A stretch of DNA of 64,000 nt from an uncultured Flavobacteriaceae bacterium (GCA_947493535.1 CANLRK010000001.1:310001-374000); one strand, 5' to 3'; positions 46,899 to 64,000 are shown, counted from the stretch's first letter. Made by a program: numbers and translations. Notes: generated by a model from the sequence alone, not told the origin.

Positions 46899-48167
46899 TT
46901 AAGTTAATCTATAAGTGCTGAAAAACAACATTAACATATAAACCATTAAGTATAAACCAGCACCAGAAGTTAAATTAAAAACTGGCATTGCTATATTAAT
47001 AGTTAACAACATTAACCAAAACATTTTAGCAACTATATTTTTTTTTGATGATACGTAAATATATTTCTGAAACATTCCAAACAGAAGAAATATTAAAATT
47101 GAACTCCACCCAAAATCTATGAACAAAGAGCCAAAAAAAGTGACATATACATATTCTCTAGGGTGGTACTTATTAAGACTATCTATATCTATACTTGTCA
47201 GTCCTATTCTATTTAACAACTTAAATATGGGGTTAAAACTATATATTCCTCTCGCCCTAGGAAGATCTTTATTTATAACATAATCTAATTCATATACCCC
47301 ATGTACAATATATTGACCTGTATGAATAAGTAGTAATTGAGTTTTAGATAAATAACTATCCGGAGTTTGCTTTAACTCTTTAATTTTTTTCGTGTTAATT
47401 TTTACGAAATCATTGTATCGAGAATTTACTACTTTTATTATTCCATTTTTACTCCCCGTATTTTCACTTACTCTTTTATTAAGTATTAAAAAAGAAAAAA
47501 TTCCTAAAGCTATAATCACAATTACTCCTAAAAAAAAATTTTTTCTTGTGAAAATTAATTTCATTTTATACACATACAAGATGGCTAAAAAAAGTATCGT
47601 TGCTAAATAGAAAATAGGTTTTCTTGTCCCAAAGAAAAATATCTCAACACTGTTAAATAGAATTAATAAAATTGCTAACACCCAGCTTAACTTATCCTTA
47701 CTTTTAACTATAACTAAATACAATAAAGGTGTAAAATACAATACTCTAAGCGTGCTAAAAATTGTTATAAAAAAAGGAGCTTGGGAAGCGTTCAGTATAC
47801 TGAGGTTTTTATTTTTATAATACGATAAATCAAACGACATACCTCTAAAAACAAATAAATCTAAATACCTAAAAAAACACGCTAGGAAAAGAATTACTAC
47901 TCCAACAATGTAATGCTTATTTGAAATCCTAATATATACATTGAAAAATTTACTCTTAAAATCTACAACAAAGAAACCAAGAAGTAAAGCAATGATGCAC
48001 AAAAAAATATATCCCTTTGTTTTTAATGAAACTGGAGCAGTATTTATAGGTAAAATTATATATGAAAACCCCCATATGAAAAACCCAAAGAACATGCTTC
48101 CTAAAAAAGAATTTTCTTTAGAAAAGCATTTCATCATCCCATCTTTTATTTTATAATATAAATGCAT
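46899..48167 (-). CDS. Wzy-type oligosaccharide repeat-unit polymerase (copy B)
   Basis: 422 residues with about eleven membrane helices and a large loop in the second half. That loop contains HGVYELDYV and RGIYSFNPIFKLLNRIGL, closely matching a loop in the protein encoded at 52716-54050. Both would polymerise lipid-linked repeats at the periplasmic face. Wzy proteins are hard to recognise by sequence; the call rests on topology and on its place next to the flippase. The first ATG overlaps the flippase gene by 17 bases; an ATG at 48137 is an alternative start. Confidence 0.72.
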   Translation of the reverse strand: MHLYYKIKDGMMKCFSKENSFLGSMFFGFFIWGFSYIILPINTAPVSLKTKGYIFLCIIALLLGFFVVDFKSKFFNVYIRISNKHYIVGVVILFLACFFRYLDLFVFRGMSFDLSYYKNKNLSILNASQAPFFITIFSTLRVLYFTPLLYLVIVKSKDKLSWVLAILLILFNSVEIFFFGTRKPIFYLATILFLAILYVYKMKLIFTRKNFFLGVIVIIALGIFSFLILNKRVSENTGSKNGIIKVVNSRYNDFVKINTKKIKELKQTPDSYLSKTQLLLIHTGQYIVHGVYELDYVINKDLPRARGIYSFNPIFKLLNRIGLTSIDIDSLNKYHPREYVYVTFFGSLFIDFGWSSILIFLLFGMFQKYIYVSSKKNIVAKMFWLMLLTINIAMPVFNLTSGAGLYLMVYMLMLFFSTYRLT

Positions 48168-49419
48168 AAATCAAAACACAAATAAGACCAATAAATAATA
48201 ATGTTAATAATGATTTTTTAAAATATATTTTCTTCTTCATCAAAGTATAAATCTGAATTATTGCTGCACACAAAACAACCATTAAATGTATTAATGTAAA
48301 AACATCTAACGATAATATATTTTTAAAAACAAAAAGACTACAAATAAATAAAATTAGTAACACTAAAAAGTGTGGGTTGTTCTTAGAAGCTAGTTTTTCT
48401 CTATCAATAATATTGGATAATAATGCTGTGGCTATCCAAAAGATCATTTGAGTTGATAATAAAAAATAAACTCCTTTATATGCTTGAATGGTTGATGTGA
48501 AAAATTGAGAAAAATACGGTAATATATAAGGGATACACGTAAATATGACTATAGATATTACATACAATACTAAAAAACACAGTGAAAAATATTTATCTAG
48601 TGTTTTAGGATCTATCAGATACATTTGCTTAAAAAAAGCAATATTTATAACCTGATAAATCATTACAACTACTGCTGAAAGTCTAAAGTAATAAGCGTAA
48701 ATACCTACTATTTCAAAATCTTTTAAAAAGAATTCTATTAAAATCCTTCCTGAAACAGTTATAAAATAAATTAACAATCCGCTAATTAAAACATGAATAC
48801 TATAAGATAATACCTTACCATAATTATAAAGTATTTTATGCTTATTAAGTGTTATTGCCCTACTTATTGCATAAATAGAATACACTAAAGCATAACCTAA
48901 AATTATACTACTAAAAACTTCTATATCTGGTTTTGCGATACCGAAATATGACAGTATATAAAAACTTAATAAAATGATATATACTCCTGAATCTATAAAA
49001 ACTGCATAGCTTATTTTTTCATTTGTCTTTAACTGTGTTGAAATATAAACTTGATTACTTATAATATATGCAACATTTAATGCTATATAATAATGTAAAG
49101 AAAAATCAAACAGTAAATATGCTATTTGAACACAACTAAAAAACAATAATAACCAGATATAATGCAATGCAAAAGCATTATTTAATTTTAACTGACTATC
49201 TTTTAATTTGAAATACGGATATGCAGCAGGAACTCCAGCGTTAATTAAGGTATTTAATACCATTCCTAATCCTGCTAATGCATATTCTAAAATTCCGAAA
49301 TCTTCCTTTGACAACAACTCTGCAACCAAAAGAGGAGCTATAAACACAACTCCTTTTGACATTACAAAAGACAGAAAAAACCAAATTTTTCCTTTAATAA
49401 ATTGGAAGATAGCTTTCAT
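48151..49419 (-). CDS. Wzx-type oligosaccharide flippase
   Basis: 422 residues, about twelve membrane helices, polysaccharide-transport (RfbX/MATE-like) family. The N-terminus GKIWFFLSFVMSKGVVFIAPLLVAELLSKEDFGILEYA is the family hallmark. It should flip the undecaprenyl-linked repeat to the periplasm for the polymerases encoded on either side. Very A/T-rich. It starts 7 bases after the beta-helix lipoprotein gene. Confidence 0.87.
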   Translation of the reverse strand: MKAIFQFIKGKIWFFLSFVMSKGVVFIAPLLVAELLSKEDFGILEYALAGLGMVLNTLINAGVPAAYPYFKLKDSQLKLNNAFALHYIWLLLFFSCVQIAYLLFDFSLHYYIALNVAYIISNQVYISTQLKTNEKISYAVFIDSGVYIILLSFYILSYFGIAKPDIEVFSSIILGYALVYSIYAISRAITLNKHKILYNYGKVLSYSIHVLISGLLIYFITVSGRILIEFFLKDFEIVGIYAYYFRLSAVVVMIYQVINIAFFKQMYLIDPKTLDKYFSLCFLVLYVISIVIFTCIPYILPYFSQFFTSTIQAYKGVYFLLSTQMIFWIATALLSNIIDREKLASKNNPHFLVLLILFICSLFVFKNILSLDVFTLIHLMVVLCAAIIQIYTLMKKKIYFKKSLLTLLFIGLICVLIYAFIL

Positions 49420-49426
49420 TTAAAAA

Positions 49427-50473
49427 CTATTTTTTAACAGAAATAGTTGCTTCAACAGCTGTATTCGGGTCTCTTTTTATTTCAATGGAAGGGTTATCGT
49501 TTAAAATAACTATCTCATCTATTAATGTAGGTCTTTCTTTATCTCCTGCATCAAAAAAGACAGTGTATTTACCCTTACTATCTTTTTCATTGATTGTAAT
49601 TTTATCAAAAGCACAATCATAACATTTATTTATCCATAATGCAGTAAATTCTTTGTGCTCTCCTTTTGCATTATCAGCATCTTGCATACCGTCCATAAAT
49701 TTTGAAGTACCAACACCAAACTTATCTATAGTTAATTCTTTTATATAGTTATCCGTACCTGTTATATACACCCCATGCCTGTCTGTAGATTTAATATGGG
49801 CCTTATTTATGGTAATATCAGTGGGGTTATTATTCCAACCGTCAATAGCAATTGCTGCATGTGTATATTTATGTTTTTCATTTCCAGATCCTACATCCTG
49901 AACCTCTAAATAATTAATGGTAATATTTGAGCTTCCTGCATAAATATGGCAACCTTTACTTCTTATTCCATAAATATTCTTTTCCACATCTGACTTTATA
50001 ACTATATTATCTATATTTATACCACTTGATTTTCTTATAAACAAACCTGCATATGTAACAAGATCACCCTTTAAAACAATACCCTTAGACTCTATTGAAT
50101 CATGTTCAATTATTTGAATCATTCCTCCAAATTCAGCATCCTTAAAATTTAATTTTACATTTTTCCGTTCTTTTATGGTCAAATTCATTTTATAATACCC
50201 CGAAGGAAAACTTATTTCTAATCCTGATTCTTCAGCTAAATCTAAAACGGCAGTCATTCTATTAACTCCTAGAGTAGGATGTCCTTTAATTGCAGTTTCT
50301 GCGGTTACGCCATACCTTCTTGCGTCTCCTATTTCATAGGAATCATCTAACACATATTTTGAATCATCAAAGACCGTTTCTTTTTCGGCTTCTTTAGCTA
50401 TACTATCTGTTTTTTTATCCGTTTTACACGAAAAAAGCGCAACTATAAATGTTATTAAAATATACTTTTTCAT
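49427..50473 (-). CDS. Beta-helix lipoprotein, polysaccharide-locus type (copy 2)
   Basis: 348 residues. Signal peptide with lipidated Cys16 (VALFSCKTDK). The motif GDARRYGV (49-56) and FPSGYYKMNLTI resemble the start of pectate-lyase-type right-handed beta-helices; helix-rung repeats follow (NVKLNF, GINIDNIVI, NITINYLEV, DITINKAHI). Conserved with its paralogue at 51718: LFIRKSSGI, IYAGSSNI, GWNNNP, DRHGVYITG and an IN[KR]CxDC Cys pair. Likely an envelope glycan lyase, epimerase or binding protein, possibly acting on the nascent polymer. No catalytic residues can be assigned with certainty. Confidence 0.72.
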   Translation of the reverse strand: MKKYILITFIVALFSCKTDKKTDSIAKEAEKETVFDDSKYVLDDSYEIGDARRYGVTAETAIKGHPTLGVNRMTAVLDLAEESGLEISFPSGYYKMNLTIKERKNVKLNFKDAEFGGMIQIIEHDSIESKGIVLKGDLVTYAGLFIRKSSGINIDNIVIKSDVEKNIYGIRSKGCHIYAGSSNITINYLEVQDVGSGNEKHKYTHAAIAIDGWNNNPTDITINKAHIKSTDRHGVYITGTDNYIKELTIDKFGVGTSKFMDGMQDADNAKGEHKEFTALWINKCYDCAFDKITINEKDSKGKYTVFFDAGDKERPTLIDEIVILNDNPSIEIKRDPNTAVEATISVKK

Positions 50474-50504
50474 TTTTTATTTTATTAATTTATTTGTATT
50501 CTGT

Positions 50505-51728
50505 TTACTCTATTTCATTTTTTATTAAAAACGGAATTATAAAGGCTAAAATAACTACTCCGTGTTGCCTGACTAAATAAGACTCTACCAAACAGCCTAG
50601 TGAGAAGAATAATAAAACATAAAAACCCATTACTTTTTTAGGTTTCCGCCATAAATTAAGCAACAAAAGTATAAATAAAACACCACCTAAAACACCAGTT
50701 TTTAAAAACTCTGATAAATATTGATTATGAGTATTAAAACCTGTTCCTTTTAATCCTGCTTTAAAATTAACAGCTTTATACTGTTTGTTTAATACTTCTT
50801 GATAATCTCCTGTACCTACACCAAAAGGAAATGAACCTACTATTTCCTTTATAGCTAAGTAATCTATCAATATTCTATGTTCTACTGTATTTTTAGTATG
50901 TGTAAAACTATTTTTGGTAATTATAGTTTTCATATTAAAGTCTGTAGTTTTTAAAAAAACATTTACTCTATTTTTAACAATAGGTACTTGTACAACTGCA
51001 ATAGTTAATACACCAACAGCAACTAAAGAAATAATTGCATGTGTTTTATTAACTCTCCATAAATTATATATAAAACCAAAACTTAAAAAACTCAAAAAAA
51101 CAAGCGATGTTTTATTTCCTAACAATAAAAAAACACCTAATGTAAGTAGTAAAACAATGCTGTTTTTAAGTAATGACTGCTTATTTTTCAGCTTTTTTAA
51201 AGCTTCAATAATGGGTAGCAATAAAATAAAGATTAGATAAAACTGGCTAACCTTTATTTTTTCTTTTATTGTAAAATGAACAAAAGTGTTTAATGTTCTG
51301 CCATCTATAAAGCAATGCCGTATTAGGTAATATATAAACACCAATGGTATTGCATACTTTAAAAACAACAGTAATTTGTTGTATGTTTTTGTTTCTAGTT
51401 GCTCAGTATATAAAATTGCTGGCAAAAACAATAGCGGAAGCATAACTAAGGTTCGTTTTATTGCTAAATCATAATTTTCTGAATAAAATACTCCAATAAG
51501 TTGAGCTAAAAAAAATAGCACATACAACAGCACTGTTTCATTTTTTTTTATGGCTTCTAATTTTAGCTTAATTTTTTCTTTAGTATCTAAAAAAAAGAAA
51601 AGTATAAGTAAAAAAACAGAAATACTATTTAAAGCAAACGACACAATAAATGTTATAAATACAAGCGCTACCAAAGCTACAAATACCTGCTCTCTATTCT
51701 TGATGATATAGTGTAACTTAGTACTCAT
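50505..51728 (-). CDS. O-antigen ligase/polymerase family membrane protein
   Basis: 407 residues, about ten to twelve membrane helices. The Wzy_C (WaaL/PglL-type) loop carries GVGTGDYQEVLNKQYKAVN and GTGFNTHNQYLSEFLKTGVLGG, the HNxYLxxxxxxGxxG pattern of O-antigen ligases. It may ligate the finished polymer to lipid A-core or protein, or act as a third polymerase. It lies between the two beta-helix lipoprotein genes and overlaps one of them by 11 bases. Confidence 0.82.
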   Translation of the reverse strand: MSTKLHYIIKNREQVFVALVALVFITFIVSFALNSISVFLLILFFFLDTKEKIKLKLEAIKKNETVLLYVLFFLAQLIGVFYSENYDLAIKRTLVMLPLLFLPAILYTEQLETKTYNKLLLFLKYAIPLVFIYYLIRHCFIDGRTLNTFVHFTIKEKIKVSQFYLIFILLLPIIEALKKLKNKQSLLKNSIVLLLTLGVFLLLGNKTSLVFLSFLSFGFIYNLWRVNKTHAIISLVAVGVLTIAVVQVPIVKNRVNVFLKTTDFNMKTIITKNSFTHTKNTVEHRILIDYLAIKEIVGSFPFGVGTGDYQEVLNKQYKAVNFKAGLKGTGFNTHNQYLSEFLKTGVLGGVLFILLLLNLWRKPKKVMGFYVLLFFSLGCLVESYLVRQHGVVILAFIIPFLIKNEIE

Positions 51729-52719
51729 TTTTAACTAATATATTTGTTAACTCATCAGTTTTTATAGGTAGTTCTTTAGCCTTACTTTTAAAATGCACGT
51801 TATTTATAAATGTTGGAGTGTGGTACACCCCTTCATCTAGTCGCAAACTATATTTACCTGCAAATACATTACTACTAATAGCTAAAGTATCTATTACACA
51901 ATCATTACACCTGTTTATCCAGGCTCCTGTAAATTCTTTTTCTTCTCCTGGTTTTGCGTCTTCTAAACCAAACATATTTATTGAGTCCCCAAGTCCATAG
52001 TTATGTATTGCTCCCTTACCTATTTGATGCCCTCTTCCTGTAATATACAAAGCTGTTCTATCTGAGTTGTTAATTTCTAAGTTAGCAATATAAACGTATT
52101 CAGGGTTATCATTCCAACCATGAACTTGTAAAGCTGCTGCGCTATGCTTATAATGATCTTCTGATACACCTCCTGTGTCATCAATTCTTAAAAACTTGAA
52201 TGAGATCATCTTACTTCCTGCATAAATGCTAACCCCTCTATTCTTTTTTTTATATATGTTTTTTACTATATCTGTTTTAACTAATAATGTATCAAATTGG
52301 ATATTGCTAGATTTTCGTATAAATAACTTATCTAAAATTGTCAGTTGACCACTAAACTTAATTTTATTAGAACCATCAAAAATATTAATTGCTCCGCAAA
52401 TAGTTGCTTCTTTAAAAATTAAGTTTACATTTGACACACCATTAAACACCAAGTTACTTTTATATACTCCTTTAGGAAATGTTATTGGTAAGCCTTTGGC
52501 TGCCAAATCTAAAATATTTGACATCCTTTTTGTAGAAATTGGTTGGTTAGGAAAAACCCCATAACGACGTGAATCTCCTTTTGAAAAAGAATCATTTATT
52601 CTATATTCTAAATCATTTACATCAAAATTAACTATAGGGGTTAAAACTTTGTAATTATTTTTTTCCTTACAAGAAATAAGGATATTTATGCATACTATGT
52701 AAAATATGAACTTCTTCAC
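51718..52719 (-). CDS. Beta-helix lipoprotein, polysaccharide-locus type (copy 1)
   Basis: 333 residues, GTG start at 52719 overlapping the stop of the upstream polymerase (GTGA). Signal peptide with Cys17 (INILISCKEK). It shares the plan of the protein encoded at 49427: GDSRRYGV (48-55), FPKGVYKSNL, LFIRKSSNI, IYAGSKMI, HGWNDNP, DRTALYITG and INRCNDC. The middle rungs are strongly divergent, as expected if the two act on different glycans. No acidic surface-export signal follows the lipid Cys in either copy, so a periplasm-facing location is as likely as the surface. Confidence 0.72.
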   Translation of the reverse strand: MKKFIFYIVCINILISCKEKNNYKVLTPIVNFDVNDLEYRINDSFSKGDSRRYGVFPNQPISTKRMSNILDLAAKGLPITFPKGVYKSNLVFNGVSNVNLIFKEATICGAINIFDGSNKIKFSGQLTILDKLFIRKSSNIQFDTLLVKTDIVKNIYKKKNRGVSIYAGSKMISFKFLRIDDTGGVSEDHYKHSAAALQVHGWNDNPEYVYIANLEINNSDRTALYITGRGHQIGKGAIHNYGLGDSINMFGLEDAKPGEEKEFTGAWINRCNDCVIDTLAISSNVFAGKYSLRLDEGVYHTPTFINNVHFKSKAKELPIKTDELTNILVKNEY

Positions 52720-54050
52720 TTATTGCTTACGGAAAATGTGAGATTTTTAGGCCAAAATTTAAAAGTAAATAAACTTATAAAAAAAGCAAATAAATAATAT
52801 GATGACGACCCCAAAAGAAAATTAATAAAAAATGATGTTATAATAACTGTAGCCAGATACCCATAAAAAATAACGTATTGAGTGTTTCCTCTTTTAGCAT
52901 AAGTATACACTCTTTTTATAAACCTACCCCAAAAAAACATAACAAACATTCCAAGCATTCCAAAATCAATATAAAATGGACCCCAAAATGTTTGATAAAC
53001 AGCCTTTCGTTTTACAATATTGTTTAATTCTCCTAAGGATTTTAATGGGATCCCTAGAGCTCTAAAAAATTTAAAAAAAATATTAAATTCATACTGTCCA
53101 TAATAATATCCTGTGGTATTTTCTAAGTCATTTACTAAGCGTATATATTCAATAACTCCATGTACAAAATAGTGCTTAAGACTATATATCCCTATTATTT
53201 TGTTTTTTTCTTCATCATTTGCATTAAAATATACTTCCTTAAAATCTTCATCGAATTTTATCCACCTATAATCTTTTTGTTCCCAAACTTTAAACGTGTT
53301 ATTTCCATAACCAAATCTTGTAAGCCTTTTATTAACTACACTTACAGAATATGAAACGAATAAAATTGCTATAAGAAACAAGGGGATTATAATGCTTTTC
53401 TTTAATAAAATTTTAGGTAAATTTATTATTGAAATACTCGCCAATTTGACTTTTAATATTGGCATATTTGTATTTTTATAAAAACTTGCAAAAATCACAA
53501 ATAGTAATGTTGTGCCTAATAGTGCTATTATGGTTCTTCCCCCCATATAAAAAGTTTCAACCATAGGGTATAAACCTGTAACAGCTATAAGTAGCAAAAA
53601 AAATTTATTAAAAACTTTATAATTATAAATAGCTATTAATAAGCTCACAAATGAAAAAGGAAACAATATAGATGCAATAATTCCAATACTTCCTCCTGAA
53701 AGCTCTTTTCCCATATTTTCTAATCGTTCCTCAAAAATATCCTCCGCAACAAAAATTCCGCTTTTAAAAAATCCAACATACAGCTTAAGTAGCACCCCTA
53801 ATAAACCGACACAAAAAAAAATAAATACAATTTGTTTCAGTTTTTTATTAGATGGTGCTTCAATAATTTTTACTTTATTTGTTTTTAGTGAAAGTATTCC
53901 TATAATAAAAGATATTATAAACACAACTAATGTAAACACAGGAAATAATATACTCCCATTATATAAATACTTTACTGGCATTTGCACATAAATAAACAGC
54001 CAGATGACCGCAGATATTACTAACAATTTAATTGGATTTACAACTCCCAT
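52716..54050 (-). CDS. Wzy-type repeat-unit polymerase (copy A)
   Basis: 444 residues with about twelve membrane helices. The late loop VHGVIEYIRLVNDLENTTGYYYGQYEFNIFFKFFRALGI matches the corresponding loop of copy B (HGVYELDYV...YSFNPIFKLLNRIGL). An arginine-bearing mid-loop (VVNKRLTRFGYGNNTF) is typical of polymerases that handle acidic repeats. It directly abuts the acyltransferase gene upstream and overlaps the lipoprotein gene downstream by 4 bases. Confidence 0.72.
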   Translation of the reverse strand: MGVVNPIKLLVISAVIWLFIYVQMPVKYLYNGSILFPVFTLVVFIISFIIGILSLKTNKVKIIEAPSNKKLKQIVFIFFCVGLLGVLLKLYVGFFKSGIFVAEDIFEERLENMGKELSGGSIGIIASILFPFSFVSLLIAIYNYKVFNKFFLLLIAVTGLYPMVETFYMGGRTIIALLGTTLLFVIFASFYKNTNMPILKVKLASISIINLPKILLKKSIIIPLFLIAILFVSYSVSVVNKRLTRFGYGNNTFKVWEQKDYRWIKFDEDFKEVYFNANDEEKNKIIGIYSLKHYFVHGVIEYIRLVNDLENTTGYYYGQYEFNIFFKFFRALGIPLKSLGELNNIVKRKAVYQTFWGPFYIDFGMLGMFVMFFWGRFIKRVYTYAKRGNTQYVIFYGYLATVIITSFFINFLLGSSSYYLFAFFISLFTFKFWPKNLTFSVSNK

Positions 54051-54791
54051 TTATTCTTTTGTAAAAACTGATTCTACCAATTCAACTCCTTTTACTTCTT
54101 TTAACTTAGATTTTACTTTTTCTAAGTTATTTTCTACAAAACGTAATCCTTGACTAACATACATACCTGATTGTGTTAAATCTTTAGAAATTGCACTACC
54201 TCCGCCAATATGTATTGCGTCATAAACTTTAACTCCAGGATTGAAAATACATCTAGACCCTACATAAACATTATTACCTATGCATATCTCTCCGTCAATT
54301 CTAATTCTTTCTTTTCCAAAATCAGCATGATAATAGCCGTGTGTCCAAAATTGAGTATTCCTACCTGCAACAACAGTATTTTTGCCAAAGGTTATCGATT
54401 TTGTAAGATCTAAAAAATGTGCTGAATTAATAAATGTGTTATCAAATAACTCTAAGGCAGAATGTCCACTTACAATGGGGAATTTTGATCTAAAAATTTT
54501 ATTACTTTTTCCAATACCGCATCCCTTATGTAAAATAATATCAAATGGTCCATTTATAAAGTTAAACCTTCTAATAGTAGAGTTTTCACCTATTATTAAA
54601 TTATTAATATTTATAAATGTGAAATTTTCTATTCTTCCTCCTTTTTCTACTTTAATAGTATCTACTAGATAAACCCCAATTCCTATACTTGATTTAAACG
54701 AGACACTGTTTTTCTTATTTAGGTTTAAAAAAAATATTCTCAAAACTCGTAAAGGTAATAATCCAAAAAAAGCATTATATAACTTCATCAT
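54051..54791 (-). CDS. Left-handed beta-helix acyltransferase-like protein
   Basis: 246 residues with hexapeptide repeats in the C-terminal half ([57 protein letters not shown]). The motif [19 protein letters not shown], with paired His, resembles the active-site loop of sugar O-acetyltransferases. It probably O- or N-acylates a sugar of the repeat unit. It overlaps the next acyltransferase gene by 17 bases. Confidence 0.78.
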
Positions 54792-55371
54792 TCCTTTTTA
54801 TTATTTTAGCGGGATTACCTCCTACTAATGTTAATGGAGGGACATCTTTTGTAACTACACTTCCAGAAGCCACAACACTCCCATAACCAATTGTTACGCC
54901 TGGCAAAACTATTGAGTTTGCCCCAATCCAAACAGAATCTCCAATAACTACTGGTTTATTCGTTCCGTAAGTGTTGATTCTATTATCGGCATTTTCAAAA
55001 CTTAAATCATGTCCGCTACCATCAAAAATTTGTGTATTAGCTGCTATTAAACAATTCTTTCCTATTTCTATACTTTTATATGCGTGTATACATGTACCAT
55101 GTATACGTGTGTTACTTCCTATTTTTATCTTCCCACCTGGTTTGTCTAGCAAAAATTTGCAGGGTGAATGCATGTTTAAAAAATACTCCCTCTTTTCGGA
55201 GTTGATAACTACATTATCCCCAATAACTAGATTTGTATTCTTACACATTTCTATTGTAGGTATATTTCTAAATTTTACACCCTTTCCAACTTTTATTTTC
55301 TTATTTATTTTACAAAAAGCTAAATATATCAGACCTACTAATTTTCTATTAATTTTTCGTAACAATCTCAT
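54775..55371 (-). CDS. Hexapeptide-repeat acyltransferase (WbbJ/maltose-acetyltransferase type)
   Basis: 198 residues. C-terminal hexapeptide repeats end in the classical [34 protein letters not shown], then NPAKIIKR. The catalytic-loop region [15 protein letters not shown] contains the His expected of the family. It would acetylate a surface sugar, or the amino group of a UDP-amino sugar. It overlaps the asparagine-synthase-like gene by 23 bases. Confidence 0.85.
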
Positions 55372-57151
55372 TATTATATATTATTAAGCAACTTAAATAA
55401 TAAACTTTTAGCAAGTACTTATCGTCTGTCATTATCCAATCTTCTTTATCCGTCTTTAAAAATCTATTAACAAAAGAACTCAATTCATATTCTTTTATGA
55501 AAGAGTTTGATTTATTACTCATATCTTCTAGGAGTATTTTTTTAATAACATCATGAAGAGACTGTTTAAAAATAATATGACCTGTTCTAGAAACAGCTTT
55601 AGACCTTAAATACGTCTTTTTATCTATTTTATCTTTCAAAGACTCTCTCAAAACATATTTATGTATCGTTGTTGGCTTATCGCTAAATTGAGACTCTCCT
55701 TTGATATTTTTTATTGATAGGCTGAAAGGAATTGTAGCAGAAAATTTTGCTAGATCCATATCATAAAAAGGCATTGCCAATTTTCCCCCTTGATACTTCA
55801 CCATATCAATCATATAACGCATATCATTAACATATTGCTCAACCCATTTTTCAGAAACCAATATATTATACAACATTCTTTTATTTTTGGCAGAAGTTAT
55901 ATCAAGGTAATGTGTATTTACTAGCGAATTAAAATAATTTAATGGCAGTTTTAAAGCTTTTAAATAAGCCTTATCTAGTTTAAAATATACTATGTTTAAA
56001 TACGATCTTGTGTTAAAAATATAAGATGCCCTTCTAAGACCTAAAAAAAACTTGTTATGAATATTTCGCTTACTTAAAATAAAATCAAAAGCTTTACGGA
56101 TAGGTAACATTAATACATGTAAAACACAAAACAATGGCGCTAAACCTTTTTTACTCAAAGTAAATACTTCAAAAGCTAATTGATCTAACTTATTAAGCGC
56201 CGGAGTGTGTAACCTTGTATCTTGACCTGCAAAATATGTTTTATTTACATTATTATTTATTTGATTTCCGAAAATCCACATTCCTGAATATGGATTATTC
56301 ATCATCGTAATTTTTTTCACAAAAACATCTTCTGTAATTTCCTTTTGAAAATCTCTCTCAATAATTTTTAAATCAACATCTAAATGATTTGCTATACTTT
56401 TAGCATATATTGTTTCATCTTGAGTAGTTCCTTTTACTTTAAATGAATGATTCTCTATTTTTTGCTTTTCTGTTAAATCATCTAAAGCAATTAGCATTGC
56501 CACTGAATCTATTCCACCAGACAGAAAAATTGTATTTAAATCATTTACATAAGGTTTATGAGCTTTTACTATTTCTTGTCTTAGTCGTTTTATATTTTCA
56601 GTTTCTGAATAATGATTTTCATTGTCAGCTATATTTGGTTGATTAAATATATTCTTTATTATACTTAACTTATCATTTATAATTATTTCTCCACCAACTT
56701 TAATCTGTTTAATGTTATTATAAATTGTTTGACCATCTCTCAAAAAATCAAAATATAACAACTGGTAAACATGTGGTTTATTTAAACCATTAGCGAACTT
56801 TTTTCCTAAACTATGAACATTAGATGATAATACAAATTCATTTTTAGCTGAATAATAGTAGCCCGTACAAAGTCCTGCAAGATCTCTATACACAAAAACT
56901 TCTGAGGTTGTTTTATGTATTAATACCAATAACCCATCTTTCTTAAAGTATGAGCTTAGCTTTTCAACTGTTAGTTTATTTGACAGACACTCTTCAATAT
57001 ATCTTTCAGAATAATTTGTGTCTATAAAAAGGTAAAAATCATTTGTTTCCCTAAACAATTCTTTACCTTCTACTTTATAATTGACTATATAGTCATTTAA
57101 TTCTAAATAATTATACCCTTCAATTTTTTTATTAATTAAATGTATGTACAT
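55349..57151 (-). CDS. Asparagine-synthase-like amidotransferase lacking the glutaminase cysteine
   Basis: 600 residues. The C-terminal ATP-pyrophosphatase domain carries the PP-loop [11 protein letters not shown] (about 208-218). The N-terminal ~180 residues keep the shape of a class II glutaminase ([33 protein letters not shown]) but start Met-Tyr-Ile instead of Met-Cys, so the catalytic nucleophile is missing. Ammonia must come from elsewhere, or the reaction differs. In surface-glycan loci such enzymes amidate uronic acids or add acetamidino groups to nonulosonic acids (PseA, WbpG), although those proteins are shorter. It follows the pse block. Confidence 0.8.
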
Positions 57152-57156
57152 AAAAA

Positions 57157-58464
57157 CTAATTATTCCTATCTATAACTTTTAAAAAAGCGTCAACCATAT
57201 TATCAATATTTTCCTCACTCATACAATTAGGTGCCACAAAAGGGTCTGAAATAATACCTAAATAACTGGTTTTGTTTAACAAACTTAAAAATGTTATTTG
57301 GTCTTCTTGGGTTATGGTTGGAAAATTATTGTTTCTTGCTAACTCAATAAATTTATTTAAATCAGAAACATCTTTAACAAACAAACAATTTTTCGCTGTA
57401 TTATTTAGAGTTTCTATTAATGTTATCACTGGCTTGTTAGACAATATACACTCTATGGCTATAGTACCTGTAACCGTAATAAATAAATCTGTTTTATTAA
57501 AAACATCATCCATAGAAATATTATGTTTTAACATAATAATATTACTATGGTTAGTTATATAGCCAATTAAATCTGATGAAAGTTCGTATTTAGATTTAGG
57601 GTTTGGTTTAATATATAATAGATCTGTTTCTTCTAAGCAATTATGGAGCTGTTTAATAACATCTAACTGATTTCTACATTTTCTACCCCAAACATCAATA
57701 TTAGCTTCCGGTTGCATCTGAAGAGGATAAAGAATTGCAAATTTATCTTTATCAATATCTGTTTGAGCCAAGTCATCCCATTGTAAAATGTTTTTCTTTT
57801 TTTCTTGTTCTTTCTTATACTTGATACTTGGTGAAGGGGTGTTATATTGTTCGCCTAAAAAATAGGATTTTATAATTTTTAATTTATCCTTTAAAATTAC
57901 ACTTTTAGATGTTTTCCTGATTTTCATATAATCAGGCTTAGAATCTCTACTAGCAATTATATTAATTATTTCAACTGCCTCCTTTTTATTTAAACTCTCT
58001 CCGCTACCTTTAAATGGAGTTAACGTATCATATTTATAAAAGGAAAACCTTCCTGTAGGATATCTACAACTTGAGGGATTTAAATATAAAATATTTTGTG
58101 CTTTACAAACTTCTATAGCTATTAACTCATGGAATGCTGTAGACTCTCCAAAAACAATATCTGGTTGTATTTCATTAAGTATTTCTTCAATTTTTAAAGC
58201 ATAATAAGCAAAATATCGTGTATCTTTCTTTTTAAAAAAATTAACTTGTCTATCAGACTGCATTACTTTAGACAAATTAATATTTGAGGAAGCTTTAGTT
58301 AAATTTTTATGTTTAGGATAAGGAATACTACTTATTAACCCTTCTTTAGGAGTAAACTCTTTGTTTTGAACTATCCAAAAAATTTCATGTTCAACTTTCA
58401 GCTTTTTAACAATAGCTTCATAAAACCATGTTTTATATCTATTTTCAATAAAAAGTAGTTTCAT
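57157..58464 (-). CDS. Capsule-type GT-B glycosyltransferase (KpsS/CDP-glycerol-transferase-like)
   Basis: 435 residues. I see a GT-B-like layout: an N-terminal domain (KLLFIENRYKTWFYEAIVKKL, IVFGESTAFHELIAIEV) and a C-terminal domain with KPNPKSKYE and LFITVTGTIAIECILSNKPVITL. The latter pattern matches the capsule-synthesis transferases of the KpsC/KpsS kind, which move Kdo-like sugars. Being next to pseI, it is the best candidate in the window for the pseudaminyltransferase (inference). Family assignment is moderate; linkage unknown. Confidence 0.6.
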   Translation of the reverse strand: MKLLFIENRYKTWFYEAIVKKLKVEHEIFWIVQNKEFTPKEGLISSIPYPKHKNLTKASSNINLSKVMQSDRQVNFFKKKDTRYFAYYALKIEEILNEIQPDIVFGESTAFHELIAIEVCKAQNILYLNPSSCRYPTGRFSFYKYDTLTPFKGSGESLNKKEAVEIINIIASRDSKPDYMKIRKTSKSVILKDKLKIIKSYFLGEQYNTPSPSIKYKKEQEKKKNILQWDDLAQTDIDKDKFAILYPLQMQPEANIDVWGRKCRNQLDVIKQLHNCLEETDLLYIKPNPKSKYELSSDLIGYITNHSNIIMLKHNISMDDVFNKTDLFITVTGTIAIECILSNKPVITLIETLNNTAKNCLFVKDVSDLNKFIELARNNNFPTITQEDQITFLSLLNKTSYLGIISDPFVAPNCMSEENIDNMVDAFLKVIDRNN

Positions 58465-58482: not shown

Positions 58483-59526
58483 CTATTCCGTAATTAACTC
58501 TAACGATAAAGGTGTGCCTTTTATTATGTTTACCTTAGATTTTTTTCCTAAAATCTTATTATAATACTTTGGATGTAAACCATAACCCGGTCTTATTGAG
58601 CGAATATTTTTCTCTGTAAAAACTTCTCCTTCTTTTACATTTTCAACCACAAAAAGAGATCTTGCAAACTTTCTATTTTTTTCTACTTTTTCTGATACTT
58701 CATAAGACACTTTGCCTAATAATTTTTCAGCGTCTCTTACGGCGTCTACCATTTCTTTAAACTCTTTCTCATCTAAAGAAAAATCAGCATCTGGTCCGCC
58801 AATGGTTTTATTTAAAATAAAATGTTTCTCTATTACTGTAGCTCCTAAAGTAGCTGCTACAACTGGTGCTAAATGTCCATAAGTATGATCTGAAAAACCT
58901 ACTTCTACATTAAATCTGTTTTTTAAATCGGGTATGGTATTTAAGTTTGCTAATTCTAGAGGCGCTGGATAACTAGAGGTACATTTTAGCAAAACTATAT
59001 TGTTATTTCCAGCTTTTCTACAAGTATCAACTGCTAATTGAATATCCTCTTCTGTCGCAATACCCGTAGACATTATAATTGGCTTTCCTTTTGATGCAGT
59101 ATACTCTATTAGAGGAATATCTTGTATTTCAAAAGAAGCAATTTTATAAGCAGGCACGTCAAGTTTTTCTAAAAAATCTACTGCTGTAAAATCAAATGGA
59201 GAAGAAAAACAGATTAAGCCTTCCTCTTTAGCAACTTCAAATAATTTCTCATGCCATTCCCAAGGTGTATATGCTTCACCATACAATTGATGCAATGTTT
59301 TACCATCCCATAATGTGCCTCCATCTATTTTAAAAAACTCATTATCGCAATCAATTGTCAATGTATCGGGTGTATAAGTTTGAAGTTTGATCGCATCTGC
59401 TCCACATCTTTTCGCCGCCCTAATTGTCTCAATAGCAACATTTAAATCTCCATTATGATTAGCTGACAATTCTGCTATTATAAAACACGGCGTTCCACCT
59501 CCAATTTTTCTTGAACCTATTAGCAT
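58483..59526 (-). CDS. pseI: Pseudaminic acid synthase
   Basis: 347 residues, NeuB family. It condenses 6-deoxy-AltdiNAc (or its formyl analogue) with phosphoenolpyruvate to give pseudaminic acid. TIM barrel with FIIAELSANHNGDLNVAIETI, GADAIKLQTYTPDTLT, SSPFD, YKIASFEI and GFSDHTYG; then the C-terminal antifreeze-like SAF domain from about residue 285 (SLFVVENVKEGEVFTEKNIRSIRPG). The SANHNG and YTPDTLT forms fit PseI better than sialic or legionaminic synthases. It overlaps the formyltransferase gene by 7 bases. Confidence 0.93.
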   Translation of the reverse strand: MLIGSRKIGGGTPCFIIAELSANHNGDLNVAIETIRAAKRCGADAIKLQTYTPDTLTIDCDNEFFKIDGGTLWDGKTLHQLYGEAYTPWEWHEKLFEVAKEEGLICFSSPFDFTAVDFLEKLDVPAYKIASFEIQDIPLIEYTASKGKPIIMSTGIATEEDIQLAVDTCRKAGNNNIVLLKCTSSYPAPLELANLNTIPDLKNRFNVEVGFSDHTYGHLAPVVAATLGATVIEKHFILNKTIGGPDADFSLDEKEFKEMVDAVRDAEKLLGKVSYEVSEKVEKNRKFARSLFVVENVKEGEVFTEKNIRSIRPGYGLHPKYYNKILGKKSKVNIIKGTPLSLELITE

Positions 59527-60392
59527 TCCTTTAGTTTTTTTCCAACTTCAAAGGTAAGCTTTTTTTCAGTTCTTATAGATTCCAAGGCTACAACTCCGTT
59601 TGAAGTTTTTATTAATATTTTAGGTTGGTTAGCGATAATTAATCCATTATCATCTTTGTAGTGAAAACCAGTATCTGTAAAACTAATTCTATCAATAATT
59701 ACTTTTTCTCCATCATAAAATGAAAAAGCTCCTGGATAAGGGTTAGCCTGAGCCCTAACCCAATTATAAATTCGTTCTTTACTCCAATCCCATTTTATTT
59801 TACCGTCATTAGGGGTTCTTTTTCCAAAGTAAGTAGCCTTTAAGTTGTCTTGAGGTATTAATGTAAGATCTTTTTTCTTAGTCGTTAAAAGCACTCTTTC
59901 AACTAACGGATAATATACCTCAGCATACTTATCCAATACAGTTGCCCCTGTATCATTTTCTTCAATAGGAATTTCTATTTGAGATATAATTGGTCCTGTA
60001 TCACACCCTTTTTCAATTAAATGTGCTGTTATTCCTGTTTTATCTTCATTATTAATAATAGCCCAAACATGAGGTGTTCTCCCCCTATATTTTGGTAAAA
60101 GAGAACCATGAATATTAAATGCATATTCTTTAGGGTGATTAATTATATCATCTTCTATCAAAAATAAATAATTGATAGATGCTAAAACATCTATATGAAA
60201 CGACTTAATAAAATCAAACCCTTTTCCATTTCTAGGGTTTCCTTTAAAAAAAGGAATCTCATTGTTTTTACAATAATCTATAATTGCAAACGAATTGCTA
60301 TCTGTCAATACGCAAACAACCTGATAACCAGCATTTATTTGTTTTAACACACTAAACCCTAAACCTCCACTTACCAAGACAGCAATTTTCAT
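59520..60392 (-). CDS. Sugar N-formyltransferase in the pse operon
   Basis: 290 residues. Formyltransferase fold with the catalytic triad Asn93, His95 and Asp131 in FNIHGSLLPKYRGR and KGCDTGPI. A C-terminal domain (residues ~200-290) is like that of methionyl-tRNA formyltransferase or sugar formyltransferases, using N10-formyl-tetrahydrofolate. It sits between pseG and pseI, where pseH (a GNAT N-acetyltransferase) is expected, and no GNAT gene is visible in the locus. It therefore probably formylates the 4-amino group that becomes N7 of pseudaminic acid. Its stop and start overlap both neighbours (7 and 1 bases). Confidence 0.85.
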   Translation of the reverse strand: MKIAVLVSGGLGFSVLKQINAGYQVVCVLTDSNSFAIIDYCKNNEIPFFKGNPRNGKGFDFIKSFHIDVLASINYLFLIEDDIINHPKEYAFNIHGSLLPKYRGRTPHVWAIINNEDKTGITAHLIEKGCDTGPIISQIEIPIEENDTGATVLDKYAEVYYPLVERVLLTTKKKDLTLIPQDNLKATYFGKRTPNDGKIKWDWSKERIYNWVRAQANPYPGAFSFYDGEKVIIDRISFTDTGFHYKDDNGLIIANQPKILIKTSNGVVALESIRTEKKLTFEVGKKLKEC

Positions 60393-61390
60393 TAATTTAT
60401 TAAGTTTAAAAACCTAGACTTTATGTTACTATCAAATAGTCTGGATTGATTTTCTATATATCTATTAAAGTTCCCTTCTCTAAGAATTTTCATCACACTC
60501 TTTTTGAATTTTTCTTTTGTATACCCCATAAAATTCCCTCCAGGATAAATTACTTTTTCCTCAACAAAACCCTTATAAATCAACTCCTGATTTTTAACAA
60601 AGTAACCTGATAAAATAGGCATCTTAACACAACATAGTTCATAACAAATAGTACTTGATGGTGCTATAGCTAAATGACACCTTTTCATTGTTTTAATTAA
60701 TTCTTTTTCACTTAAGTTTTTATATAAAAACACCTTTTGAGGAAACACTTTTTGAACTTCTAAAATTTCTTTGTGTTTATAGGCTCCTCCAAGAACAATG
60801 TGTATTTCTTTTATTTCTAATTCAAGTAATGCTTTAGTTGCTAATAAGGAAAAGTCATGAGCATCTGCACCACCAAAACAAACAAAAACATTTTCAATTT
60901 TATTTATTTCTCTTTCTAAAGAAGCTTGGTGTAAAAACCCAGGTCTTAAAACCGCATATTTAGTACCTAAAGCAAATTTTGTATTTTTATGAGCTGAAAA
61001 ATCTTGTTCTTTTACATACGGAGAATGATTTATAACTACATCTGCAAACATTCTTTCTGAAGCTAAATCATCTACATATAATAAATTAAAGCCTAAGGTT
61101 TTTATTTTTAATTGATAATCGCTAGTAAATTGATAACCATCCGCAATTAAAATATCATTTTCAGGAGTATAATTATTAACTAACCAATCTGGCTCATTAA
61201 TTATAGAAATATTATCTGGAATACAAGTAACATTATAAGTATGGGGTATTACCTCTTTAGTAGAAGTATCTCTTGTTATGAATTCAATATCAAACTGGTC
61301 TTTATACATTTCATATAAAGCAAACATTCTATATAAATGTCCTAAACCCGTATCTGAATTACCGTCTGCTCTACAAAGAATTTTTTTCAT
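60392..61390 (-). CDS. pseG: PseG-like UDP-sugar hydrolase
   Basis: 332 residues, GT-B-like hydrolase that removes UDP from the 2,4-diamido-altrose intermediate. N-terminal ILCRADGNSDTGLGHLYRMFAL places the catalytic His at 18 (His17 in Campylobacter PseG). Further blocks are VCFGGADAHDFSLLATKALLE and APSSTICYELCCVKMPILSGY. Slightly longer than typical PseG. It overlaps pseF by 20 bases and the formyltransferase gene by one base. It must accept the formylated substrate if the neighbouring enzyme acts first. Confidence 0.88.
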   Translation of the reverse strand: MKKILCRADGNSDTGLGHLYRMFALYEMYKDQFDIEFITRDTSTKEVIPHTYNVTCIPDNISIINEPDWLVNNYTPENDILIADGYQFTSDYQLKIKTLGFNLLYVDDLASERMFADVVINHSPYVKEQDFSAHKNTKFALGTKYAVLRPGFLHQASLEREINKIENVFVCFGGADAHDFSLLATKALLELEIKEIHIVLGGAYKHKEILEVQKVFPQKVFLYKNLSEKELIKTMKRCHLAIAPSSTICYELCCVKMPILSGYFVKNQELIYKGFVEEKVIYPGGNFMGYTKEKFKKSVMKILREGNFNRYIENQSRLFDSNIKSRFLNLIN

Positions 61391-62081
61391 TATCTAGCCT
61401 CATTTTATATTTAATTTCTGCTAGCTTCCAATCTATTTCATTATCAATATCTTGAGCTTCTAATTCGCTTATTTCTACAATTCCAGTATTATTGGTCCAA
61501 AGTTTCCTTTCTTTTATAATTGTTTCAACATTAAAAAAATAAAACTGTCCAACATCATGAAAAGCAGGTTCTAAGTCTTGTGATCTACTATTTAAATGTT
61601 CTGGTTGAAACATTTCCATCTTGTTAGAAGTACTATCTAACTTTACAGCTCTTTGAATTGGAAAACCAAACCTAACAGCAGGGAAAACACAATCAAACTT
61701 ACTATTTTCTAATAAATTAAAAGACTCCTTTAAAAGAGACGATGATATAAAAGGTGCTGTAGCATATAAGCAACAAATGTTAACTATTTCAACGTTCTTC
61801 AATTTATACCAGTTAATTACTTCCTCAATTACATCAAAAGTAGTAGCATAGTCTGATGAATTTTCTTTGGATCGTAGAAAAGGAACTTTTGCTCCATATT
61901 CTATAGCAATACTAGCAATCTCTTCATCATCTGTAGAAACTATTACCTCGTCAAATAAATTACTCTCTATAGCTGCAGTAATAGAATAAGCAATAATTGG
62001 TTTCCCTAAAAAAGGTTTAATATTTTTTCTAGGAATCCTTTTACTTCCTCCTCTTGCAGGTATAATTGCTAGATTAACCAT
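61371..62081 (-). CDS. pseF: CMP-pseudaminic acid synthetase (cytidylyltransferase)
   Basis: 236 residues. It activates pseudaminic acid with CTP. N-terminal nucleotide loop LAIIPARGGSKRIPRKNIKPFLGKP, DEVIVSTDDEEIASIA, and EAQDIDNEIDWKLAEI near the C-terminus, as in the NeuA/PseF family. The pse context selects PseF over NeuA. It overlaps pseC by 8 bases. Confidence 0.92.
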   Translation of the reverse strand: MVNLAIIPARGGSKRIPRKNIKPFLGKPIIAYSITAAIESNLFDEVIVSTDDEEIASIAIEYGAKVPFLRSKENSSDYATTFDVIEEVINWYKLKNVEIVNICCLYATAPFISSSLLKESFNLLENSKFDCVFPAVRFGFPIQRAVKLDSTSNKMEMFQPEHLNSRSQDLEPAFHDVGQFYFFNVETIIKERKLWTNNTGIVEISELEAQDIDNEIDWKLAEIKYKMRLDNEKNSL

Positions 62082-63216
62082 TATTTATAAACCCTAATAT
62101 TTTTTCTATAACCATATCCTGCTCTTTATTTGTTAATCTAGGATACATAGGTAAACTAATACATTTTGAATAATATTTCTCTGAGTTAGTTAAACCTGCA
62201 TTTCCATAGCCTATTTCTTGGTAATAAGGCAGTCTATGAACCGGTATATAATGTATTTGAGCAAATATTTTTTGGTCTCTTAAATAATCATATAACTCTT
62301 TTCTATTGTCTACTTCTATTACAAATAAATGATGTGCGTTATAATATCCTTTAGGTAGTTCTTGAAACTTTATTTTTCCTTTAAACGCAATTTTATATCT
62401 GCTTGCTATTTCATTACGTTTCTTAACACCTTCTTCATTCTTAGCTAGCTGAGTAATCCCTAAAGCCGACTGAATATCTGTTAACCTGTAATTAAAACCT
62501 AATTCTTGCATTTCATAAAACCAACCTCCGTGGTTTTCACTCATGTTTTCTTTAGTGATTCCATGAGTACGAAGCAGCATCAATTTTTTATAAAGTTCTT
62601 CAGAGTTTGTTGTTAACATTCCCCCTTCACCACACGCTATATGTTTTACTGGATGAAATGAAAACACCCCTATATCTGCATAAACTCCATTTCCACATTT
62701 CTGCTCAACTCCATTAGAATCTGTAAAAAAACCTCCTGGAGCGTGGCAAGCATCTTCAATAATCCATAAATCATGCTCTTTAGCTAAACCTCTAAATTTT
62801 TCTAAATCAACTGGAAGTCCCGCAAAATCAACAGGAATTATTCCTTTGAAAAACCCTTTAGGTTTGCTTTCTATAAGCTCTTTTGTCTTTTCAAAAGATA
62901 ATAAATAGGTGTCTGGATCTATATCTGCAAACCAAACTTCTCCTTTAGCAAACCGAACACAATTAGCACTAGCAGCAAAAGTAATTGGTGTAGTTACAAC
63001 TCGCTCTCCTTCTTTTAAGCCTAAAGCCAATACAGCAATATGTAATGCAGAAGTAGCGTTATTTACAGCAACTGCATATTTAGCCCCAACATAATCAGCA
63101 AATTTTTCTTCAAACTCTTTTACTTTAGGACCTTGAGTTAAAAAATCTGCTTGAAGTGTTTCTACAACTGCATCTATATCTGTTTGGTCAATATGTTGTC
63201 TTCCGTATGGAATCAT
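62074..63216 (-). CDS. pseC: UDP-4-amino-4,6-dideoxy-N-acetyl-altrosamine transaminase
   Basis: 380 residues, PLP aminotransferase of the DegT family. N-terminal IPYGRQHIDQTDIDAVVETL is a PseC hallmark. The aspartate block is LWIIEDACHAPGG; the PLP Lys is in FSFHPVKHIACGEGG (about residue 191). It aminates the 4-keto product of PseB. The start overlaps the pseB stop by one base (TAATG), so the two are translationally coupled. Confidence 0.94.
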   Translation of the reverse strand: MIPYGRQHIDQTDIDAVVETLQADFLTQGPKVKEFEEKFADYVGAKYAVAVNNATSALHIAVLALGLKEGERVVTTPITFAASANCVRFAKGEVWFADIDPDTYLLSFEKTKELIESKPKGFFKGIIPVDFAGLPVDLEKFRGLAKEHDLWIIEDACHAPGGFFTDSNGVEQKCGNGVYADIGVFSFHPVKHIACGEGGMLTTNSEELYKKLMLLRTHGITKENMSENHGGWFYEMQELGFNYRLTDIQSALGITQLAKNEEGVKKRNEIASRYKIAFKGKIKFQELPKGYYNAHHLFVIEVDNRKELYDYLRDQKIFAQIHYIPVHRLPYYQEIGYGNAGLTNSEKYYSKCISLPMYPRLTNKEQDMVIEKILGFINNG

Positions 63217-64000
63217 TACACTTCAAAATTAGGGTCTACAAATCTCTTTACATTCTCACGTAAAGACGCTATAGTTTCCCACTCAGTATTATCTCCAGAA
63301 TTGTAGCTAAACCCATCTTTAACTCGTTTAGCGCCAAAGTGCTTGACAAAGTCATCTAAATTGAAGGTAGGTTTTTGAGGTATAATAGCATAGTATTTTC
63401 CTAAGTCCCATGTATTTAATGAGTCTGAAACAGTAATCATTTCTTCATGTAATTTTTCTCCAGGTCTTATACCTACTATCTTCTGCTCGCACTCAGGAGC
63501 TATAGCTGTAGCTACATCTGTAATTTTATATGACGGTATCTTAGGGACAAATATTTCACCTCCCCAAGCGTTTTCTAAAGCATTCATTACCATTTCTACA
63601 CCATCATCTAGAGATATATTAAATCTCGTCATCCTATCATCCGTGATAGGTAATACCCCTTCTTTTCTTTTCTTTAAAAAGAATGGCATAACAGATCCGT
63701 TAGACCCCATTACGTTACCATAACGAACAACAGAAAAACGAATATCTCTTTTTCCTTTTATATTATTAGCTGCAACAAATAGCTTGTCCGATGCTAATTT
63801 TGTAGCACCATATAAATTAATCGGGGCTGCTGCTTTATCAGTGGATAACGCTACTACATCACTCACTCCGCATGCCAATGCTGCGTCAATAACATTTTCT
63901 GCACCTATAATATTTGTGTTAACACATTCCATAGGATTATATTCAGCTATGTGAACATGTTTCATCGCTGCTGCATGTATAACAACATCTATACCTTCGA
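63216..64000 (-). CDS. pseB: UDP-GlcNAc 4,6-dehydratase / 5-epimerase, C-terminal part (continues past window end)
   Basis: The frame stays open to the window edge: before the ATG at 63965 the codons read EGIDVVIHAAA, the conserved run that precedes MKHVHIAEYNPMEC in PseB. The catalytic Tyr/Lys are in NLYGATKLASDK, and STDKAAAP and SVVRYGNVMGSNGSVMPFF are family blocks. The first step of pseudaminic acid synthesis converts UDP-GlcNAc to the inverted 4-keto-6-deoxy sugar. The NAD-binding N-terminus lies outside the window. Confidence 0.93.
   Translation of the reverse strand, partial: EGIDVVIHAAAMKHVHIAEYNPMECVNTNIIGAENVIDAALACGVSDVVALSTDKAAAPINLYGATKLASDKLFVAANNIKGKRDIRFSVVRYGNVMGSNGSVMPFFLKKRKEGVLPITDDRMTRFNISLDDGVEMVMNALENAWGGEIFVPKIPSYKITDVATAIAPECEQKIVGIRPGEKLHEEMITVSDSLNTWDLGKYYAIIPQKPTFNLDDFVKHFGAKRVKDGFSYNSGDNTEWETIASLRENVKRFVDPNFEV

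Follow-up and report, generated by a model that had tools for sequence, protein, structure and literature searches.

The BH1/BH2 locus

We analyzed a 64,000-nucleotide window of the genome of an uncultured Flavobacteriaceae bacterium (GCA_947493535.1 CANLRK010000001.1:310001-374000; positions are counted from the window start), in which two paralogous lipoproteins with a predicted beta-helix (BH) fold, BH1 and BH2, are encoded on either side of an O-antigen-ligase-like gene, LIG (Table 1). These genes belong to a surface glycan cluster that includes a pseudaminic acid (Pse) pathway. On the minus strand, the order of transcription is a Wzy-like gene (54050-52716), BH2, the ligase-like gene, BH1, Wzx and a second Wzy-like gene (48167-46899). 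The 4-bp overlap of BH2 with the upstream Wzy gene and its 11-bp overlap with the ligase gene suggest that the three are translationally coupled; the ligase and BH1 genes are separated by 31 bp, and BH1 and Wzx by 7 bp. The open reading frames (ORFs), gene order and strand given in a preliminary description of this DNA were all correct, with Wzx and the second Wzy gene lying outside the span that it noted (49427-54050).

Table 1. Genes of the BH1/BH2 locus and of the surrounding glycan cluster, in window positions
Feature	Position	Strand	Basis
BH1, predicted beta-helix lipoprotein, groove subtype A209/D211	49427..50473	-	ORF, lipobox FSC, AlphaFold2 model
BH2, paralogous predicted beta-helix lipoprotein, GTG start, groove subtype Q/H	51718..52719	-	identity to BH1, lipobox ISC
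LIG, O-antigen-ligase-like, predicted WaaL fold	50505..51728	-	PF04932 1e-12; AlphaFold2 pLDDT 82.8
Upstream Wzy-type polymerase	52716..54050	-	TIGR04370 1.3e-16, above cut-off
Wzx-type flippase	48151..49419	-	PF01943 8.4e-8
Second Wzy-type polymerase	46899..48167	-	TIGR04370 5.5e-14, above cut-off
HexA, hexapeptide-type O-acyltransferase-like	54051..54791	-	weak hexapeptide matches; near BH in related loci
Capsule_synth/BFO_1060-like glycosyltransferase, putative Pse transferase	57157..58464	-	PF05159 just over cut-off
PseI pseudaminic acid synthase	58483..59526	-	TIGR03586 equivalog 2.5e-159, above cut-off
PseG hydrolase	60392..61390	-	TIGR03590 equivalog 5e-50, above cut-off
PseF-, PseC- and PseB-like genes (CMP transferase, aminotransferase, dehydratase)	61371..63965	-	PF02348, PF01041, PF02719

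BH1 and BH2 share 38% identity over 342 alignment columns (E 1e-68), along with every motif that the preliminary description had attributed to both. Each protein begins with a lipobox, and Cys16 is invariant in alignments of 10 (A1) and 16 (A2) sequences, as expected of lipoproteins. The Cys pair of the IN[KR]CxDC motif is present in both proteins but does not hold as a family feature, because its second Cys was found, counting by eye, in only 9/16 homologues; a disulfide or metal site at this CxxC was rejected for that reason. Neither BH1 nor BH2 matched any family in Pfam or NCBIfam, and across 16 BH members the only Pfam match was PF13229 (2/16; best E 0.018). PDB sequence searches with a single protein and with a profile returned only signal-peptide or chance matches, and a PHROGs search returned nothing consistent.

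The surface lipoprotein export signal (LES) of Bacteroidota is a K-(D/E)2 or S-D-D-type sequence after the Cys (PMC5080379). A loose pattern of this type just after the Cys, which may differ from the LES of this genus, fits 4/20 BH members and neither of the copies in the window. Judging from these N termini, surface export seems unlikely, and BH1 and BH2 are probably periplasmic.

The AlphaFold2 model of LIG aligned to WaaL (7tpg) with a Z of 26.8 over 372/407 residues at 15% identity, and the SEDS proteins FtsW and RodA followed far behind as the next group, with Z values of 10 to 11. The PF04932 domain and the WaaL-like fold, the latter predicted with good confidence, place LIG among WaaL-type proteins. 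Neither feature tells lipid ligases, polymerases and protein O-oligosaccharyltransferases (O-OTases) apart.

Pairing with a ligase gene and correlated evolution

We found 20 members of the BH family in 14 distinct loci, all in Flavobacteriaceae; it is rare, with carriers making up 8/298 sampled genomes of that bacterial family. Every one of the 14 is a glycan locus containing a ligase-like gene, and nearly all are nonulosonic (mostly pseudaminic) acid loci. A BH gene lies directly beside the PF04932 ligase gene in 13/14 loci and within one gene of it in 14/14, the exception to direct adjacency being L017/L030, where Wzx stands between. The pair is also kept in a different type of glycan locus (L019), and whole-genome profile searches of six carrier genomes revealed no extra or unlinked BH copy. 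The linkage to ligase and Wzy-like genes predicted in the preliminary description was thus borne out in all of the loci found, within Flavobacteriaceae, but the spread across Bacteroidota that it anticipated was not: samples at the phylum and order levels, with five candidates scored per genome, contained no full-length match beyond the window's own genome. Partial matches in three genomes (G122, G351 and G484) covered the N-terminal end only (34 to 63 residues) and were discarded. A contig scan with a single peptide pattern found 9 loci and therefore undercounts BH loci. A 621-amino-acid (aa) lipoprotein without a Pfam match is encoded in a glycan locus of the same type (L025:2832-4697).

A close homologue of the ligase (E < 1e-60; next best 1e-17) is present in 7/298 genomes, and all seven carry BH. 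In the eighth BH genome (G169), the neighbor of BH is a divergent ligase gene (profile E 7.6e-15) and the glycan locus is a different one; no homologue of Wzx or of the putative Pse transferase was found in that genome. Homologues of these two proteins occur in the same seven genomes and in one other, G007, whose related locus (L072, contig 19) includes a Pse synthase, the transferase, Wzx and one Wzy, together with Wza and a Wzc/Wzz-domain gene, and has neither a ligase gene nor BH; PF04932 genes are present elsewhere in this genome. As a single genome, G007 offers only a hint. Wza lies inside none of the eight sampled BH loci, and all eight genomes encode it elsewhere, on other contigs.

Distance matrices were correlated over 12 loci, and the pairwise distances fell into two blocks. 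One consists of the upstream Wzy, BH2 and the ligase (r 0.56 to 0.80) and the other of Wzx, the second Wzy, GT1 and PGT (r mostly 0.47 to 0.72; GT1-PGT 0.32, not significant). No significant correlation was found between the blocks, and BH2 does not track any of the four members of the second one; its correlation with the putative Pse transferase is 0.49. Within six loci that share one upstream-Wzy type, BH2 and the ligase remain correlated (r 0.84, exact p 0.006) and BH2 and that Wzy are not (r -0.01), so the Wzy signal lies between types; the three upstream-Wzy types broadly match BH2 clades (L030 unresolved). A correlation with the ligase holds for BH1 as well (r 0.66, p 0.009, n=6). The idea of a module linking the lipoproteins to glycan-assembly genes, put forward in the preliminary description, stands, with the change that in evolution the lipoproteins pair most closely with the WaaL-type ligase and not with Wzy. 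The proposal of one lipoprotein per polymer does not stand. Single-copy BH loci often carry two Wzy-like genes (L018, L029 and L030), so the number of BH copies is not matched to the number of polymers, and at the G007 locus Wzx and Wzy occur with neither BH nor a ligase. The reading should accordingly shift from one editor per Wzy polymer to a dedicated partner of the WaaL-type ligase.

Exported proteins of other kinds also adjoin ligase genes. Among 22 loci of distant ligase homologues, six have another exported protein directly beside the ligase gene. Three of these are membrane-anchored SGNH/GDSL-type proteins (L041:2651-3631, L042:2673-3596 and L055:609-1481; two Pfam-level matches and one weak match, L055), two are WD40-like beta-propellers with a signal peptide (L047:2663-3577 and L052:2625-3587), and the remaining one is a lipoprotein of unassigned type. 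A wider pattern of exported partners is not established by these cases. It is conceivable, if doubtful, that a class of WaaL-fold ligases in Flavobacteriaceae needs a dedicated exported partner whose fold is interchangeable (a beta-helix, an SGNH hydrolase, a beta-propeller or another lipoprotein), loosely like the pairing of SEDS polymerases with class B penicillin-binding proteins; the BH family would then be the first recognized example of such ligase partners.

Elsewhere in the cluster, the names PseF, PseC and PseB are suggested by the context of PseI and PseG, and the Pse pathway genes also include a formyltransferase-like gene. The role of Pse transferase is likewise assigned to the glycosyltransferase from gene context; its BFO_1060 domain match (3e-7) is below the cut-off. 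A 600-aa asparagine-synthase-like protein, possibly a sugar amidation enzyme, is encoded within the glycan locus (55349-57151). Farther away, the window encodes the T9SS component PorW/SprE (20407-22956; NCBIfam 2e-237).

Predicted fold and conserved positions

The beta-helix fold, which had been a guess in the preliminary description, has gained support from an AlphaFold2 model of BH1 built from 16 homologues (mean pLDDT 90.8, with poor values only in the signal peptide and in the linker that follows the Cys). By its strand pattern, the model is a single-stranded right-handed beta-helix with an N-terminal helix cap, which places BH1 in the right-handed parallel beta-helix (pectin-lyase-like) superfamily with good confidence. 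VIA-align matched the model to 342 chains at a Z of at least 8, and the matches listed are beta-helix proteins, among them the alginate lyase 6kfn (Z 23.6, 252 residues, 2.9 A), the AlgE4 and AlgE6 epimerase modules (Z about 21), phage tailspikes of Sf6, CBA120 and Acinetobacter AS12 (Z about 20-22) and RbmB (Z 19.3). A search of viral folds gave no match at E <= 0.001, only many weak tailspikes, and no phage origin is claimed for BH for this reason.

In the 16-member alignment, the invariant polar residues include D50, R52, R53 and Y54 in the N-terminal cap and Y94, Y178, N216, R232, Y236, T238, D265, W280 and N282 elsewhere; D50, R52, R53, Y54, Y94, R232, Y236 and W280 remain invariant in a more divergent alignment. 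The linker and the C terminus are not conserved. Conserved polar positions favor the short-strand sheet and the cap, which hold 12 of the top 20 positions against 26/132 available (hypergeometric P 1.4e-5, an optimistic value because the position classes were drawn after the alignment had been viewed). Two positions on one short strand, 209 and 211, are A-D in all BH1-type and Q-H in all BH2-type proteins (16/16); in four further members, the partner of the D or H is M, Q, I or L. Each two-copy locus encodes one A-D and one Q-H protein, including L024 and L026, in which the second copy falls outside the BH2 clade in the tree. This split suggests two specialized sites.

Functional readings and comparison with known systems

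The reading that we favor, tentatively, is that BH1 and BH2 are lipid-anchored periplasmic polymer-handling partners dedicated to the WaaL-type ligase, most likely lyase- or epimerase-like. The two proteins would face the periplasm beside the ligase, possibly in physical contact with it, and a groove on one strand face would bind the undecaprenyl-linked Wzy polymer. Their most likely action on that polymer would be a lyase or epimerase reaction of the Arg/Tyr type that trims or converts an acidic sugar, either ahead of or during transfer of the polymer by the ligase to the acceptor. As the paralogues differ at two positions of the groove strand (Ala-Asp versus Gln-His), each probably sees a different sugar or linkage. 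Several points weigh against this interpretation. The sample is small (14 loci), and G007 is a single case. Foldseek E-values of BH1 to single enzymes are weak (best 4e-3), so the fold match speaks to the superfamily and not to function. The AlgG/AlgE catalytic motif DPH[DE] is found in 0/20 BH members, no catalytic motif of a known family was found in BH, and the groove has no invariant acidic pair. Residues that are invariant could serve the structure rather than the function, and the strand-face argument is built from strand assignment and alternation, not from measured coordinates. Finally, exchange of a contiguous gene cassette could explain part of the co-evolution.

The strongest rival makes the lipoproteins the glycan acceptors. 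LIG would be a dedicated protein O-OTase, and BH1 and BH2, once it had linked the Pse polymer to them, would be lipid-anchored glycoproteins, an arrangement that we consider unlikely. The 20 BH proteins contain 57 matches to the Bacteroidota O-glycosylation motif, D[ST][AILVMT], against 19.6 expected, about three times the expectation; many of the matches fall at the same turn of the coil, which suggests a structural origin, and the enrichment was for that reason not taken as evidence of glycosylation. The O-antigen-ligase domain is common to O-OTases and WaaL. Genes for the pilin-specific O-OTases TfpO, TfpM and PglS often lie near those for their respective substrates (PMC12645811), just as the transferase gene here stands beside one for an exported protein. 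Acceptor function would explain both the adjacency and the co-evolution of BH and the ligase. An acceptor needs no conserved groove, yet BH has invariant Arg, Tyr, Trp and Asp residues, and the conserved aromatic and Arg positions would be left unexplained, whereas the likely attachment regions, the linker and the C terminus, vary. The type of the upstream Wzy tracks the BH2 type too, which fits polymer recognition.

A non-catalytic factor that binds the growing polymer and sets its length or presents it to the ligase, replacing Wzz/Wzc, is rather improbable to us: it would suit the missing catalytic motif, the lack of Wza in the sampled BH loci and the presence of Wza and a Wzc/Wzz-domain gene inside the BH-less G007 locus, but the latter is one case, the strict conservation of Arg, Tyr and Trp exceeds the usual needs of binding alone, and we know of no chain-length regulator with this fold. 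The matches to RbmB, a Vibrio cholerae lyase of its own species' VPS polymer (PMC11637428), and to tailspike depolymerases would agree with a surface or periplasmic depolymerase of the RbmB or AlgL kind that clears mis-targeted polymer or releases polymer from the cell. This account appears improbable, as such a clearing enzyme requires neither the tight tie to one ligase clade nor the joint absence in G007, and surface export signals are mostly missing. Last, BH could be a hitch-hiker in a gene cassette, functionally unconnected to the ligase, its co-evolution reflecting shared recombination history. The correlated genes are indeed neighbors, but HexA, which lies next to or between them, correlates weakly (r 0.25), which weakens any shared-cassette account, and the BH-ligase pair persists in the different glycan locus of L019; we regard this explanation as very improbable.

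The attachment of glycans at the cell surface of Bacteroidota is poorly understood, and a family whose presence and absence follow one ligase clade provides a concrete handle on it. The tie between BH and the ligase may reveal that ligation depends on editing of the polymer or on a partner, and BH1 and BH2 are candidate enzymes acting on pseudaminic-acid glycans.

In the open-access literature, we found no description of a beta-helix protein with Wzy or an O-antigen ligase in this arrangement. WaaL shares the predicted fold of LIG over 372 of 407 residues, at only 15% identity, and we know of no beta-helix partner of WaaL. TfpO, TfpM and PglS, like LIG, are WaaL-domain transferases encoded beside a dedicated exported protein; unlike theirs, the partner here is not a pilin but a conserved beta-helix with a probable functional groove. 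WcaM of the colanic acid cluster was considered as an analogue of BH and was not established as one. The tailspike depolymerases of Sf6, CBA120 and Acinetobacter AS12 resemble BH in their beta-helix and tailspike-like start, but BH is a small, lipid-anchored cellular protein encoded in a biosynthesis operon, and no sequence relation was found. RbmB is a beta-helix of similar size that, unlike BH, is secreted and disperses biofilm; no sequence similarity was found between the two, and to our knowledge RbmB has no ligase pairing. The AlgG/AlgE mannuronan C-5 epimerases, like BH, are right-handed beta-helices, but BH lacks their DPH[DE] motif and is not filed in that family for this reason. Unlike AlgG, moreover, the lipoprotein BH belongs with a Wzx/Wzy/ligase pathway rather than with alginate polymerase and secretion, in a locus that makes Pse. 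As a precedent, however, AlgG is a periplasmic beta-helix epimerase of the alginate assembly complex, encoded in a polysaccharide gene cluster, that has an Arg in place of calcium and uses Arg and Tyr (PMC4444821).

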